NCBI RefSeq assembly: GCF_010993745.1
Contig: NZ_WOTN01000001.1
Coordinates: 1,429,235 to 1,493,234 of the forward strand
Reading direction: 5' to 3'
DNA length: 64,000 bases
Source: Fodinicola acaciae
GTDB taxonomy: Bacteria > Actinomycetota > Actinomycetes > Mycobacteriales > HKI-0501
The notes beneath the pieces were generated by a model, which did no database searches, was not told the DNA's origin, and was given only the letters and a program-made list of their open reading frames with translations. Shown in pieces: positions 44,466 through 50,388 of the stretch. The position numbers and the translations under genes are program-made. Within the stretch, counting starts at the first letter, position 1. Every line of letters starts with the position of its first letter.

Positions 44466-45746
44466 TCAGTTGCCGAGCGGATCGAGCCGCTGGAACGGCG
44501 GGTCGGCCACTCGCCACCAGTGCGCGCCGTCCAACGACCAGAGCACGACCGGCACGCTGCCCCGCTGCACCTGAGCGACGACCGCGTCGCTGTCCAGTGC
44601 GTGCGCGATCTCGCCACCGGAAAAGCTCGGTACGGTCGTGAAGGTGCGGCCCCCGTTGGTGCTGAGCCGGATCGTCCCGCTCGAGAAGTCGCTCGCGACG
44701 ATGGCACCGCTCTTCAGCACGACCGGGTTGACCAGCCCGCCCGACTGGTCGGCAACCGGCGACCAGGTCCGGCCGCCGTCACCGGTGGCGTAGACGGCCG
44801 TCCGGTTGGGAGTCTGGCGCCACTTGAACTGGTACGCCGTCCGGCCGTCGTAGGTGTCCTCGTACGGCCGGTTCGGCGCGTTGTCCGCCTTCTCGTCGGT
44901 GATCAGCGACCGCGCGTGGTTCCAGGTGCGGCCGCCGTCGCGGCTCACCGACGGGAAGTCGGCGAACTTCGCCGGCTGGCCGCGGTTGACCCAGATCGAG
45001 CCGTCGGTGGCCTGCCGGATGCCGGTGATCCCCATCCCCGTCGACAGGCCGAGGTCCGCGTCCGGTGGCTGGTGCACCAGCGATCGTACGGAGCCGCTTG
45101 CCGGATCGACGGCGGCGAGCCTGCCGTCCACGGCGGTGACGTACGCACCGGCCGGCGCCTGGTCGATCGCCTTGCCCGTCACCAGCGTCGTCCAGCTCTG
45201 GCCGCCGTCGCGGCTCAGGTACGTGGCGCCGTTCTTGAAGGTGTCGCCGTCCTGCCGAACGAGGTCGTTGAGGATGAGGACCACGTCTCGGACCGCGGTC
45301 AGCATCGGCTGGTGCGCTCCGGGGATGCGCCAGGCCTGCCAGCTCTGGCCGCCGTCCAGCGTACGCACCAGCGCGACTCCACCGCCCTTGATCTTGCCGA
45401 CGCCGTAGGTGATCAGCGGTCCGAGCACGCTTGTCGTCGTCGTGCCGTCGATCTGGTCCAGGGGCACGGCCGCGCCGCTGATCTGACCGTGCGATGCCGG
45501 CGGCTGGCTCGGCGTCGGCAACACCGACGCCGGCGCGACCGGTAGGACCACCGCCGGTGGCCGGTTGACGAGCACCACCGTGCCACCGGCGACCACGACG
45601 ACCGCTGCCGCGACCGCGGCGATCGCCATCGCGCTCCGCCTGCGGTGGCGCCGCCGGCCGGCCTGCCACAAGGCACCGAATCCCGGTGGCGTCGTGGTCT
45701 GTTCGCGTACGGCGGCCCGCACGTCCTCGAAGTCGAGCTTGCTCAT
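44466..45746 (-). CDS. Membrane-anchored BNR-repeat beta-propeller protein
   Basis: A 426-residue protein: a short cytoplasmic N-terminus (1-37, ending GRRRHRRRS), one helix (about 39-61), a Pro-rich linker, then a large extracellular domain with BNR/Asp-box motifs (LSRDGGQSW, VSRDGGRTW, ATGDGGRTW, LSTNGGRTF) consistent with a beta-propeller. Coupled to the ECF sigma gene (ATGA overlap). The topology fits a membrane partner of the sigma factor, but the N-terminal piece is too short and different for a ZAS anti-sigma. Confidence 0.75.
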   Translation of the reverse strand: MSKLDFEDVRAAVREQTTTPPGFGALWQAGRRRHRRRSAMAIAAVAAAVVVVAGGTVVLVNRPPAVVLPVAPASVLPTPSQPPASHGQISGAAVPLDQIDGTTTTSVLGPLITYGVGKIKGGGVALVRTLDGGQSWQAWRIPGAHQPMLTAVRDVVLILNDLVRQDGDTFKNGATYLSRDGGQSWTTLVTGKAIDQAPAGAYVTAVDGRLAAVDPASGSVRSLVHQPPDADLGLSTGMGITGIRQATDGSIWVNRGQPAKFADFPSVSRDGGRTWNHARSLITDEKADNAPNRPYEDTYDGRTAYQFKWRQTPNRTAVYATGDGGRTWSPVADQSGGLVNPVVLKSGAIVASDFSSGTIRLSTNGGRTFTTVPSFSGGEIAHALDSDAVVAQVQRGSVPVVLWSLDGAHWWRVADPPFQRLDPLGN

Positions 45747-46300
45747 CGGGCTACCTCCTCGCCGTCCAGGGCCGCGAACGTGTCGTCGTCCAGCAGCCGC
45801 GCGAGCGCCGCGCGACCGCGGACCAGCCGGGTCTTGATGGTGTTGGCGGAGGTACGCAACGTCCGCGCCACCTCCTCGACGCTCAGGTCCGCGAGGTGGT
45901 GCAGCGCGATCGCCTCGGCCTGCACGGCCGGCAGTTTGCGCATCGCGGCCATGATCTCCAGCCGTTCCGAGCCGATCCCCGGCAGCGTCGTCGGCGGCGG
46001 CTCGCGGCGTATCAGCGTGTCCAGCCGGACTCTTCGGCGAAACCTGCTGCGTGCGACGTTCAGCGCCACCGTACGCAGCCAGGCCTCCGGACTGTCCGCG
46101 GCCAACGCCTTCGCCGGCCGCGCGATCGCCTTGAGAAACGCTTCCTGGACGGCGTCCTGAGCCTCCGGCAGGTCACCGGTCAGGGCGTACGCGGCCAGCA
46201 CCAGCCGCTGGTAGGTGGCGCGATAGATCTCCTCCAGCCGCCGCGCGACCTCGCCGCCGGACGCCACCGCTGGTTCCCCGTCCGCCATCGCATATGTCAT
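45743..46300 (-). CDS. ECF RNA polymerase sigma factor (SigE-like)
   Basis: A 185-residue ECF sigma: region 2 has RATYQRLVLAAYALTGDLPEAQDAVQEAFLKAI, and region 4 has RKLPAVQAEAIALHHLADLSVEEVARTLRTSANTIKTRL. GAGGAGATGGG precedes the ATG. It directs polymerase to a small regulon when released. The downstream overlapping gene encodes a membrane protein with an outside beta-propeller, a candidate sensor or anti-sigma partner. Confidence 0.9.
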   Translation of the reverse strand: MTYAMADGEPAVASGGEVARRLEEIYRATYQRLVLAAYALTGDLPEAQDAVQEAFLKAIARPAKALAADSPEAWLRTVALNVARSRFRRRVRLDTLIRREPPPTTLPGIGSERLEIMAAMRKLPAVQAEAIALHHLADLSVEEVARTLRTSANTIKTRLVRGRAALARLLDDDTFAALDGEEVAR

Positions 46301-46359
46301 CCCATCTCCTCATGACCAACCGCCATGAGTGAGAGACTCCTGCCGCCGTCCGTACGGTT

Positions 46360-49300
46360 TCAGGCGCTGTCGATCGCGCGGAGCACGCGCTTCTCCGAGA
46401 CCGGATAAGCGGTGCCGAGCGACTGCGCGAACAGGCCGATCCGCAGCTCCTCGATCATCCAGCGCACGTCCGCCAGCTCGGCGGGCACCGGCAGACCTGC
46501 CGGCACCCGCGCCAGCCGCCGCTGGTATTCCTCCTGCACGTACGCGACCACGCGCATGTTGAGCGTGTCGCGCGGCAGGTCCCGGCGCAGCCGCTCGATC
46601 CGGTGCGCGATCGCGGCCAGATAGCGCGGCAGGTCGGCCAGCCGCTGCCAGCCGGTCGCGGTGACGAAACCGCGGTAGACCAGGCCGTCCAGCTGCCGCC
46701 GGATGTCCGTGACGGCCGGCTGAAGCGTCGCGTTGCGCAGGTCGGCCAGCGCGGCCTCGACCTGGTGGCTGGTCGTCAGGACGATCTCGACCGAGCGTAC
46801 GACCGCGAGCGTCGCCTCCGGCAGGCCGTCGCGCACTTTCCGCACCAGCGCGTCGAAAGCCGGACCTTCCCAGGCCGGACCGCCGGCCTCGGTGATGAGT
46901 TTGTCGGCCGCACAGCCGATGCAGTCCTGCAGCATGTCCGAGACATCGCGGTGCGGGTTTTTGCTGAGCGTCAGCTTGCTGCGGTTGTCGAGCCGGCCGT
47001 TGACGTACGCGACCGGCGATGGCACGTTGAGCAGGACGAGCCGCCGCGTGCCGTCCCACATCGCCTTCTGTTGCTCGGCTTCGGTGTCGTACAAGCGAAT
47101 CGCGACGCTGTCGCGCTCGTCGGTCAGCGCCGGATACGCCTTCACCGTGTGGCCGCCGCGGCGCTTCTCGAAGACCTTCGGCACGTCCTGGAAGCTGCGC
47201 AGGCCGGCTTTCTCGACGCCGCGCGGCCCGGACGCCATCTCCGCCCGCATCCGCTTCTGCAGGCGTTCCTTCAGGACGTACAGGTCCTTGCCTTCGGCGA
47301 CCGTCTTCTTCCGGTCGACCACGCGGAAGGTGACCTTCAGATGGTCGGGCACCTTGGCCAGGTCCCATTCCTCCCGCGGCACGCGGATGCCGGTCATCCT
47401 GGCCAGCTCGTCCTCGACCGCACCGAGCAGTTCGCCTTCGCTCGGCTCGATGGCCGCGACGACCGCCGCGGCCACGTCCGGCGCCGGCACGAAGTTTCGG
47501 CGCCAGGCCTTGGGAAGCGACTTGATCAGCGCGGCCACCAGGTCTCTGCGCAGGCCGGGCACTTGCCAGTCGAAACCGTCCGGCGACACCTGGTTGAGGA
47601 TGGACAGCGGAATGTGTACGGTCACGCCGTCCGCGTCGGTCCCCGGCTCGAACTGGTAGGTCAACGACAGCCGCAACGAACCCTGCTGCCAGCTGTCCGG
47701 ATAGTCCTGCGCGCTGACCAGCTTCGCCGGATCGTTGATCAGCATGGACTTCTCGAAGTTCAGCAGGTCCGGCCGGTCGCGCCGGGTTTTCTTCCACCAG
47801 CTGTCGAAATGCCTGCCGGACACGACGTCCGCGCCGATCCGTTGGTCGTAGAACTCGAAAAGCGCCTCGTCGTCGACCAAAATGTCGCGGCGGCGAGCAC
47901 GGTTTTCCAGATCCTCGACTTCTTCGAGAAGTTTGCGGTTGTCGTGGAAAAACTGGTGATGGGTGTCCCACTCGCCGTCGACCAGCGCGTGCCGGATGAA
48001 CAGCTCGCGGCTCAGCTCCGGGTCGATCCGGCCGTAGTTGACCTGTCGTCGCGGGATCACCGGCAGGCCGTAGAGCGTCACCTTTTCGAAGGCCAGCACC
48101 GCTCCGCGCTCGGCGTCCCAATGCGGTTCGCTGTACGTCCGCGCAATCAGGTGCTCGGCGAGCGGCTCGATCCACTCCGGGTTGATGGCCGCGACCGTAC
48201 GCGCCCACAGCCGCGTCGTCTCCACCAGCTCGGCGGCCATCACCCAGCGCGGCTGTTTCTTGAACAGGCCGGAGCCGGGGAAAATCGAGAAATGCGCGTT
48301 GCGCGCGCCGGCGTAGTCCTGTTTTTCCGGGTCTTTCAGGCCGATCTGCGAGAGCAGGCCGGACAGCAGGCTGAGGTGCACCTTGTCCGGATCGGCGTTC
48401 GCGGTGTTCGGCGAGATGCCGATGCCACGGGAGATCTGCCGCAGCTGGCCGTAGAGGTCCTGCCACTCGCGTACGCGGAGGTAGTTGAGGAAGTCGGTGC
48501 GGCACAGCTTGCGAAACTGGTTGCCGGACAACGCTTTCTGCTGCTCGGTCAGATACGACCAGAGGTTGAGGTAGGCGAGGAAGTCCGAGTGCGGCTCGGC
48601 GAACCGCCGGTGTTTCTCCGCCGCCTGCTCCTGCTTGTCCACCGGTCGTTCGCGCGGGTCCTGGATGGACAGTGCGCTCACGATGATGGTGACCTCGCGT
48701 ACGCAGCCGTTGCGGTCGGCCTCCAGGATCATCCGGCCGAGCCGGGGATCCACCGGCAGCGACGACAAACGCCGGCCCAGCGGGGTCAGCGCACCCGACT
48801 TTTCCAACGCACCAAGCTCCTGCAGCAGCTGTACGCCGGCGGCGATGTTGCGTTTGTCCGGCGGGTCAAGGAAACCGAAGGCCGCGATGTCGCCGAGGTC
48901 GAGGGCGGTCATCTGCAGGATCACCGACGCGAGGTTGGTGCGCAGGATCTCCGGATCGGTGAACTCCGGCCGAGAGTCGAAGTCGTCCTCGGTGTAGAGC
49001 CGGATACAGATGCCGTCGGACGTACGGCCGCACCGGCCCTTGCGCTGGTTGGCGGACGCCTGCGAGATCCGCTCGATCGGCAGCCGCTGCACCTTCAACC
49101 GGTTGCTGTAGCGGGAAATCCTGGCCTGGCCGGGGTCGATGACGTACTTGATGCCGGGGACCGTCAGCGAGGTCTCGGCCACGTTGGTGGCCAGCACGAT
49201 CCGCCGGCCGCTGTGCGACTGGAAGACCCGGTGTTGCTCGGCGGCGGACAGTCGCGCGTACAGCGGCAGGATCTCGGTGTTGCGCAGGTTCTGCTTGCTG

Positions 49301-50241
49301 AGAAAGTCGGCGGTGTCCCGGATTTCTCTCTCACCGCTGAGAAAGACCAGGATGTCGCCGGGGCCTTCCGCGGACAGCTCGGCGACCGCGTCGCCGATGG
49401 CCGACATCTGGTCGCGGTCCTCGTCGGCCCGCGGATCGTCGGGGTCGACCACCGGCCGATAACGCACCTCGACCGGATACGTGCGGCCGGAGACCTCCAC
49501 GATCGGCGCGTCGCCGAAATGCCGCGAGAACCGCTCCGGGTCGATGGTCGCCGAGGTGATGATCACCTTCAGGTCCGGCCGGCGCGGCAGCAGCTGCTTG
49601 AGATAGCCGAGGATGAAGTCGATGTTGAGGCTGCGCTCGTGCGCCTCGTCGATGATCAGCGTGTCGTACTGCCGAAGCGCGCGGTCCGAGCCGATCTCGG
49701 CCAGCAGGATGCCGTCGGTCATCAGCTTGACCAGGCTGTCGTCGCCGACCTGGTCGGTGAACCTGACCTTGTAGCCGACAGTCGCCCCGATGGTCGTGCC
49801 GAGCTCCTCGGCGACCCGCTCGGCGACCGTACGCGCGGCGATCCGGCGCGGCTGCGTGTGGCCGATGGTGCCGCGTACGCCACGGCCGAGCTCCAGGCAG
49901 ATCTTCGGCAGCTGCGTCGTCTTCCCGGAGCCCGTCTCCCCCGCGACGATCACGACCTGATGGTCGCGGATCGCGGCGGCGATCTCGTCGCGCTTCTGGC
50001 TGACGGGAAGCGCGGCCGGATAGCTGATCGCCGGCACGGCTTGGCGGCGGCGCTGGACGCGTGCCTCGGCCTTCTCGAGGTCGGCGGCCAGCTGGGTCGC
50101 GACGTGCGCCAGGCGGGCCGGGTCACGGAGCTTGCGAGCGCCTTCGATGCGACGGCGCAGCCGGCGCTCGTCGCGTCCCATCAGGTCGGGGAGGCGTTGC
50201 GAGAGCCCGGCGAGTGGCGACGGAACGGTTGAGGAAGGCAT
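46360..50241 (-). CDS. hrpA: ATP-dependent RNA helicase HrpA
   Basis: A 1,293-residue DEAH-box helicase. In order: Walker A VAGETGSGKTTQ near residue 100, DEAH in IIDEAHERS, SAT in TSATIDPE, then helicase C with NVAETSLTVPGIKYVID and QRKGRCGR. HA2/OB domains follow, and a long C-terminal DUF3418 region characteristic of HrpA rather than HrpB. It remodels RNA or ribosomal complexes. The ATG at 50241 lies 10 nt after TATCCT; 11 further residues are open upstream but lie above this promoter box. Divergent from the Ddn-type gene. Confidence 0.93.
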   Translation of the reverse strand: MPSSTVPSPLAGLSQRLPDLMGRDERRLRRRIEGARKLRDPARLAHVATQLAADLEKAEARVQRRRQAVPAISYPAALPVSQKRDEIAAAIRDHQVVIVAGETGSGKTTQLPKICLELGRGVRGTIGHTQPRRIAARTVAERVAEELGTTIGATVGYKVRFTDQVGDDSLVKLMTDGILLAEIGSDRALRQYDTLIIDEAHERSLNIDFILGYLKQLLPRRPDLKVIITSATIDPERFSRHFGDAPIVEVSGRTYPVEVRYRPVVDPDDPRADEDRDQMSAIGDAVAELSAEGPGDILVFLSGEREIRDTADFLSKQNLRNTEILPLYARLSAAEQHRVFQSHSGRRIVLATNVAETSLTVPGIKYVIDPGQARISRYSNRLKVQRLPIERISQASANQRKGRCGRTSDGICIRLYTEDDFDSRPEFTDPEILRTNLASVILQMTALDLGDIAAFGFLDPPDKRNIAAGVQLLQELGALEKSGALTPLGRRLSSLPVDPRLGRMILEADRNGCVREVTIIVSALSIQDPRERPVDKQEQAAEKHRRFAEPHSDFLAYLNLWSYLTEQQKALSGNQFRKLCRTDFLNYLRVREWQDLYGQLRQISRGIGISPNTANADPDKVHLSLLSGLLSQIGLKDPEKQDYAGARNAHFSIFPGSGLFKKQPRWVMAAELVETTRLWARTVAAINPEWIEPLAEHLIARTYSEPHWDAERGAVLAFEKVTLYGLPVIPRRQVNYGRIDPELSRELFIRHALVDGEWDTHHQFFHDNRKLLEEVEDLENRARRRDILVDDEALFEFYDQRIGADVVSGRHFDSWWKKTRRDRPDLLNFEKSMLINDPAKLVSAQDYPDSWQQGSLRLSLTYQFEPGTDADGVTVHIPLSILNQVSPDGFDWQVPGLRRDLVAALIKSLPKAWRRNFVPAPDVAAAVVAAIEPSEGELLGAVEDELARMTGIRVPREEWDLAKVPDHLKVTFRVVDRKKTVAEGKDLYVLKERLQKRMRAEMASGPRGVEKAGLRSFQDVPKVFEKRRGGHTVKAYPALTDERDSVAIRLYDTEAEQQKAMWDGTRRLVLLNVPSPVAYVNGRLDNRSKLTLSKNPHRDVSDMLQDCIGCAADKLITEAGGPAWEGPAFDALVRKVRDGLPEATLAVVRSVEIVLTTSHQVEAALADLRNATLQPAVTDIRRQLDGLVYRGFVTATGWQRLADLPRYLAAIAHRIERLRRDLPRDTLNMRVVAYVQEEYQRRLARVPAGLPVPAELADVRWMIEELRIGLFAQSLGTAYPVSEKRVLRAIDSA

Positions 50242-50388
50242 ACCGCGATCAAGGATAGGCGTACGGACCGTCACGACGCTTCTGCATTTCCGCGTTCGCT
50301 GTGAGCGAACGACCTACGGACATAAAACCAACCGGCCACACGTTAGTGATAGTCGACTGTCGGATAACTGTCCCGAAAGGACCGGTAT

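Follow-up and report, generated by a model that had tools for sequence, protein, structure and literature searches.

CnrY, the class II anti-sigma factor of Cupriavidus metallidurans, spans the membrane once and has a short tail, and some ECF sigma factors of planctomycetes are linked to WD40 propellers, which differ in propeller repeat and in phylum from the propeller discussed here. According to PMC7406223, two anti-sigma helices of CnrY contact sigma4 and sigma2 of CnrH, the class I anti-sigma domain (ASDI) has an average length of 101 ± 33 residues, and for approximately a third (32%) of ECF sigma factors a gene for a class I anti-sigma factor lies in the vicinity. In PMC8999054, activation by proteolysis is reported for IutY and expected for ECF48, ECF52 and ECF53. 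Among the matches listed in a literature search, whose reach did not extend to the ECF reclassification tables (10.1093/nar/gkaa1229) and PMC4518836, there was no paper on a sigma factor paired with a short-tail propeller protein.

Such a pair is found on the minus strand of the window, the whole stretch of 64,000 nucleotides of Fodinicola acaciae DNA that was analysed. It exhibits similarities to each of the described systems, but there are also differences. As with the class I regulators RseA, RsiW and RskA, which are often membrane-bound, the presumed regulator is encoded beside an ECF sigma gene; unlike class I ASDI/ZAS proteins, it has a tail of approximately 40 residues that matches no ZAS or RskA model. 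A short two-helix tail followed by one membrane helix resembles CnrY–CnrH in predicted architecture only, and the pair departs from CnrY–CnrH in its outside propeller, its start–stop overlap and its SigE-like sigma factor, with no detectable sequence similarity. Related loci carry fusions that, as in ECF48/52/53 and IutY, join the sigma factor, a membrane helix and a further part in one chain; these fusions have a short tail only, whereas the actinobacterial ECF48/52/53 fusions are described with a zinc-finger domain, and the window's own sigma factor and partner, unlike both ECF48/52/53 and IutY, are separate genes. The features of the locus are as follows.

45743..46300, minus strand: ECF sigma factor gene, SigE-like, 185 aa, with sigma2 and sigma4 (open reading frame and domain matches)
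45743..45746, minus strand: ATGA, the sigma stop overlapping the partner start, which suggests translational coupling
44466..45746, minus strand: partner gene, 426 aa, predicted single-pass N-in membrane protein with an outside Asp-box propeller
45624..45746, minus strand: predicted cytoplasmic tail, residues 1-41, with a helix at 6-18, a proline turn and a basic helix from 23; proposed sigma-binding module
45567..45623, minus strand: predicted membrane helix, residues 42-60 (Kyte-Doolittle hydropathy window; AlphaFold helix 23-54)
44517..45485, minus strand: predicted outside beta-propeller, residues 88-410 (AlphaFold2 model, Foldseek)
45339..45362, minus strand: Asp box 1, TLDGGQSW
45192..45215, minus strand: Asp box 2, SRDGGQSW
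44922..44945, minus strand: Asp box 3, SRDGGRTW
44763..44786, minus strand: Asp box 4, TGDGGRTW
44640..44663, minus strand: Asp box 5, STNGGRTF
46332..46362, minus strand: weak ECF-promoter-like element, TGAAACC-N18-GTCTCT, which overlaps the stop codon at the end of the open reading frame upstream (46360-50274)

The first-pass annotation had described a sigma gene overlapping its partner gene by ATGA, and both open reading frames are indeed present on the minus strand at the coordinates that it gave. The sigma factor matches Sigma70_r2 and Sigma70 r4_2 above the Pfam cut-offs, passes TIGR02937 (62.2 bits against a cut-off of 42.9) and consists of sigma2 and sigma4 only, as befits an ECF sigma factor. 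Its top NCBIfam match is SigE-fam_strep, TIGR02983, and because this best match, at 121.8 bits, does not reach the curated cut-off of 141.55, the factor is here called SigE-like. Upstream, 59 bases separate the sigma gene from the end of a long open reading frame on the same strand (46360-50274), which by eye looks like a DEAH-type, HrpA-like helicase.

The same annotation had proposed an N-in, single-helix protein with an outside Asp-box propeller and 37 cytoplasmic residues; hydropathy, charge, Asp boxes and the structural model agree with this anatomy. Judged from the position of the membrane helix, the tail has approximately 37-41 residues, close to the proposed value, and the six Lys/Arg in residues 26-41 as against one in 61-75 point to an N-in orientation. 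In the AlphaFold2 model (mean pLDDT 70.9), helices are predicted at 6-18 and 23-54 and beta strands from 88 onward; the tail forms two predicted helices (pLDDT blocks 57-71), of which the second enters the membrane. The outside part matches BNR/Asp-box PF02012 above the Pfam cut-off and contains five Asp boxes of the strict form and a sixth of a relaxed form. Sortilin, GH74, YCF48 and TolB propellers are the best Foldseek matches (E from 3.5e-9), with low TM-scores (0.24-0.49 among the matches listed, normalised to query length), so that the predicted structure is clear as to propeller fold type, and membership of the Asp-box (BNR) propellers is indicated by PF02012, the five strict boxes and these low-scoring propeller matches together. 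The partner sequence itself gave a single match, at E 0.1, among solved structures. The FRIP motif is the mark of sialidases (GH33); a sialidase identity was considered and rejected, as no [FYLVI]R[IVL]P occurs from residue 86 on.

This arrangement is not confined to one locus of the 8.86-Mb genome. A search with the partner found 15 match places, corresponding to 13 loci, at E<=1, and a comparison of coordinates placed all 15 next to a SigE-type sigma gene or in frame with one. A search for sigma genes (150 of 193 candidates scored) gave 75 matches, of which the best-scoring 38 (>=86 bits) were examined. A coupled short-tail partner is present at 27 of these 38 SigE-type loci (26 by script, L041 by eye), and three further loci (L053, L061 and L063) encode intact single-chain fusions of sigma factor, tail, helix and propeller. 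L069 is a shortened fusion that ends after 323 aa, and L058 has an apparently frame-shifted partner. Three of the remaining six loci have a ZAS match nearby, and the genome thus uses at least two layouts for its sigma factors.

The outside domains of the 27 partners are not all alike: at E<=0.001, 16 match BNR, one YkuD (L,D-transpeptidase) and one FG-GAP. One of the 27 also matches a bacterial Ig model, which, like the YkuD match, hints at a link to the cell wall. At least three Asp boxes are found in 16 separate partners and in the three fusions. In the sigma tree described below, the window sigma factor sits in a clade of 18 members (support 98), all from this genome, so the propeller/sigma set looks like a lineage expansion. 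Four sigma/propeller pairs stand in tandem on one strand at G000:C1:2265805-2272087 (L046), which would be a local expansion. Broken or shortened copies of the unit were also seen (L058, L069 and L274 in this genome, and L272), among them a sigma fragment that runs into propeller sequence; such damaged copies suggest fast gene turnover.

The layout also recurs in other actinomycetes. A scan with the three fusions as query, in which the 80 best of 154 relatives were retained, gave 78 actinomycete loci. In 57 of these the sigma factor and its partner are separate genes and a membrane helix is called, in 15 the two are in frame, and among the other six, L114, L119, L122 and L144 have a tail by eye and a helix under the threshold, L123 stops at a contig end, and L162 is without a partner. 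By eye, 13 of the 15 in-frame loci are convincing fusions, found in Catellatospora and relatives, and 11 of these have an Asp-box outside domain. L153 appears to contain a frame shift, and the same may be true of L154. In a class-wide sample, which consists of the better-scoring sigma matches rather than a random draw, the layout was present at 29 of 29 loci in the first set, and a short-tail partner at 100 of 107 high-scoring loci after enlargement (L274 of these being from the own genome); the same test was passed by 10 of 116 open reading frames of the window (>=200 aa, shadow frames included). The rest of the 107 comprise five classed as 'other', of which L198 and L215 have a tail by eye, and L272 and L274, which are in frame and apparently broken genes. 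At least three Asp boxes occur in 8 of the 100 class-wide partners.

Close relatives of the window sigma factor, at the cut-offs used, were found in just 30 of 79 and 61 of 296 sampled genomes. The window partner protein matched 7 of 41 genomes at E<=0.001; the matches are strong only within the genus, and those in five genomes outside it have E values of 5e-5 to 6e-4. No direct ortholog of the partner was seen in the same-genus genome G001 (74% complete), in which the best match is 37% identical. The expectation of conserved synteny in other actinobacteria therefore holds for the layout, which is widespread, but not for the exact pair, for which strong partner matches are found only in the genus itself. 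Nor is the coupling of a sigma factor to a propeller an isolated oddity: as a rule, the sampled relatives of the sigma factor have a short-tail partner, and the outside domains of these partners are of several kinds, the propeller among them.

The fusions provide a second line of evidence. A FastTree tree was built from 151 sigma domains after thinning of near-identical sigma factors, leaving out L153, L123, L162 and the pairs without a called membrane helix. On it, the fused state requires five changes, each beside separate-gene sisters, and includes two multi-member clades: the three own-genome fusions cluster together (support 100), and the Catellatospora fusions group together (support 97) beside a separate Micromonospora pair. 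These two clades can be regarded as firm on the sequence data; L154, L155 and L157 are placed singly and might each reflect an assembly error, which is likeliest for L154. Because sigma factor and propeller are joined in one chain, the topology of a fusion is fixed, with the sigma factor inside and the propeller outside. In the model of a fusion, pLDDT is 65-73 in the tail, a modest confidence as in the model of the window partner, and below 50 in much of the membrane part, and comparison with known structures recovered sigma chains and propellers and hardly covered the tail.

Across 184 separate pairs, the tail has a conserved pattern, in which an amphipathic helix is followed by a proline-rich turn and then by a basic helix that continues into the membrane. 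Large hydrophobic residues occupy columns 4, 8, 11 and 15 in 76, 93, 78 and 50% of the tails and column 26 in 73%, a degree of conservation that, as judged from the alignment, is more than a positive-inside signal needs. When a profile built on 25 tails of other species was run against the own genome (150 of 1198 candidates scored), the 11 top matches (E<=0.04) were all SigE-type partners or fusions, as were 17 of 26 matches at E<=1; the window's own tail ranked 21 of 26, with E 0.43. Compared with solved anti-sigma chains, CnrY included, the tail profile, a very short query, gave no match at E<=10. At L143:3506-4711, the first helix of the partner resembles, in an alignment, the end of sigma region 4 of fused relatives, as if from a split fusion or a copied segment; this is one case and may be chance.

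Taken together, the recurrence, the tail pattern and the scattered fusions lead to a sigma/anti-sigma-like unit with exchangeable outside domains, which appears to be built like the CnrY type without detectable sequence kinship. We consider it probable that the sigma factor and a membrane-anchored regulator are made as one unit, in which the tail holds the sigma factor and the propeller senses the outside. The tail of approximately 40 residues, with its two short helices, would probably keep the sigma factor at the membrane, in the way that CnrH is held by the short domain of CnrY; the anatomy of the partner argues for such direct binding, and the action on the sigma factor would be inhibition rather than activation. 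The outside propeller would sense a surface or extracellular ligand, and the signal would pass through the single helix, most simply, as a guess, by regulated proteolysis of the anchor, upon which the sigma factor would be freed to transcribe its targets, probably including its own operon.

Alternatively, the partner might be co-expressed without binding the sigma factor, its N-terminus being only a long signal-anchor, with the sigma factor controlled by its promoter or by another system. Streptomyces coelicolor SigE, for example, is under the CseBC two-component system, as reviewed, and PMC8999054 lists some ECF39 members, SigE included, without an anti-sigma factor. Covariation, which was computed over the 184 separate pairs with fusions left out and with shuffles within sigma clusters, gives no clear contact signal either. 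With coarser and finer clustering, respectively, the mean mutual information between sigma factor and tail is equalled or exceeded by 0 and 1 of 100 shuffles and thus lies above them, but the strongest single coupling is equalled or exceeded by 96 and 99 of 100, and the top ten by 24 and 92 of 100. A pre-specified contrast based on the CnrY topology failed, its value being equalled or exceeded by 193 and 76 of 200 shuffles. Mantel tests on 30 pairs gave r 0.30 for sigma factor and tail and r 0.69 for sigma factor and outside domain, which indicates co-inheritance of the sigma factor with the whole partner and does not single out the tail; a weaker r would be expected of a short, noisy segment, yet it gives the tail no favour. 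Mean identity is likewise similar in the tail and the outside domain (25 versus 23% over 30 pairs, and 26 versus 27% over 19 propeller pairs).

However, an amphipathic helix precedes the basic stretch throughout the 184 pairs, the outside domains vary while the tail pattern and the sigma type stay, and shared expression alone hardly explains why sigma factor and propeller were joined into a single chain in no fewer than two lineages with several members. A non-binding partner is thus unlikely. As for the proposal that the tail holds the sigma factor directly, the tail pattern and the fusions make it the likely sigma-binding part, while the covariation results are negative or inconclusive.

A second alternative retains the contact and changes its sign: the partner could be an activator, or a dual activator-inhibitor, if the sigma factor needs the tail or a cleaved fragment for stability or activity. 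RskA is reported (PMC7509140) as a dual activator-inhibitor of SigK, and a fused sigma–tail chain would presumably retain its tail after cleavage. We give this reading a slim chance beside the inhibitory one set out above.

That a canonical anti-sigma factor encoded elsewhere controls the window sigma factor, with the propeller protein only modulating it, is very improbable: the genome does contain at least seven ZAS domains and one RskA match, but all of these lie at other sigma loci and none in the window. Each of the seven ZAS matches, from a search that scored 150 of 183 candidates, is near or inside such a locus, with one of them encoded on the strand opposite to its neighbour, and the single RskA match (32 of 32 candidates scored) adjoins the sigma gene at C4:1091358, a locus that also has a ZAS match. 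Neither Pfam nor NCBIfam models of class I anti-sigma domains (ASDI/ZAS, RskA) matched the window partner. None of the 27 short-tail partners of the genome matched such models in Pfam, and in NCBIfam there was one weak match to NF052375 (E 3.6e-5). The earlier statement that no ZAS- or RskA-type anti-sigma factor is present at the locus is therefore borne out.

The probable inhibitory unit may also act on its own promoter. The TGAAACC-N18-GTCTCT element of the window resembles TGCAACC-N17-GT upstream of related sigma genes, a form that came from unbiased word counts and was chosen after looking. Upstream of sigma genes from other genomes, GCAACC occurs in 44 of 85 regions versus 4.0 in dinucleotide shuffles, 38 of 53 -35 sites are followed by GT at a distance of 17 bases, and the bipartite form is found in 41 of 87 sense regions as against 8 antisense and 1 in-gene; there are 54 GCAACC sites in all, some of them far from the gene and maybe due to chance. 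In these relatives, the element fits an autoregulated ECF promoter. Within the own genome the signal is weak, as a loose TGCAACC form occurs in 5 of 31 sense regions versus 1 antisense, and a looser one in 11 versus 4. None of the 31 own-genome upstream regions contains the preset GGAAC-CGTC form, and two looser versions of it, present in 1 and 5 of these regions, do not go beyond the shuffles.

Finally, it is possible, though we put this forward tentatively, that these proteins are a widespread and largely undescribed type of one-helix sigma receptor in actinomycetes. Such receptors would share a two-helix tail of approximately 40 residues and would have exchanged their outside domains, which include propeller, transpeptidase, FG-GAP and others; in several lineages they would have merged with their sigma factor into a self-restrained membrane protein that needs to be cut to act, and the own genome would possess approximately 19 parallel propeller sensors. 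ECF sigma factors are a principal means by which signals from outside are passed into the cell, and if a short tail explains the control of a common actinomycete sigma type, the question of that control becomes directly testable, with the natural fusions as ready-made constructs. In addition, the TGCAACC-N17-GT element could be used to predict regulons of the SigE-type sigma group, and short-tail sigma receptors could give insulated sensors for engineering.
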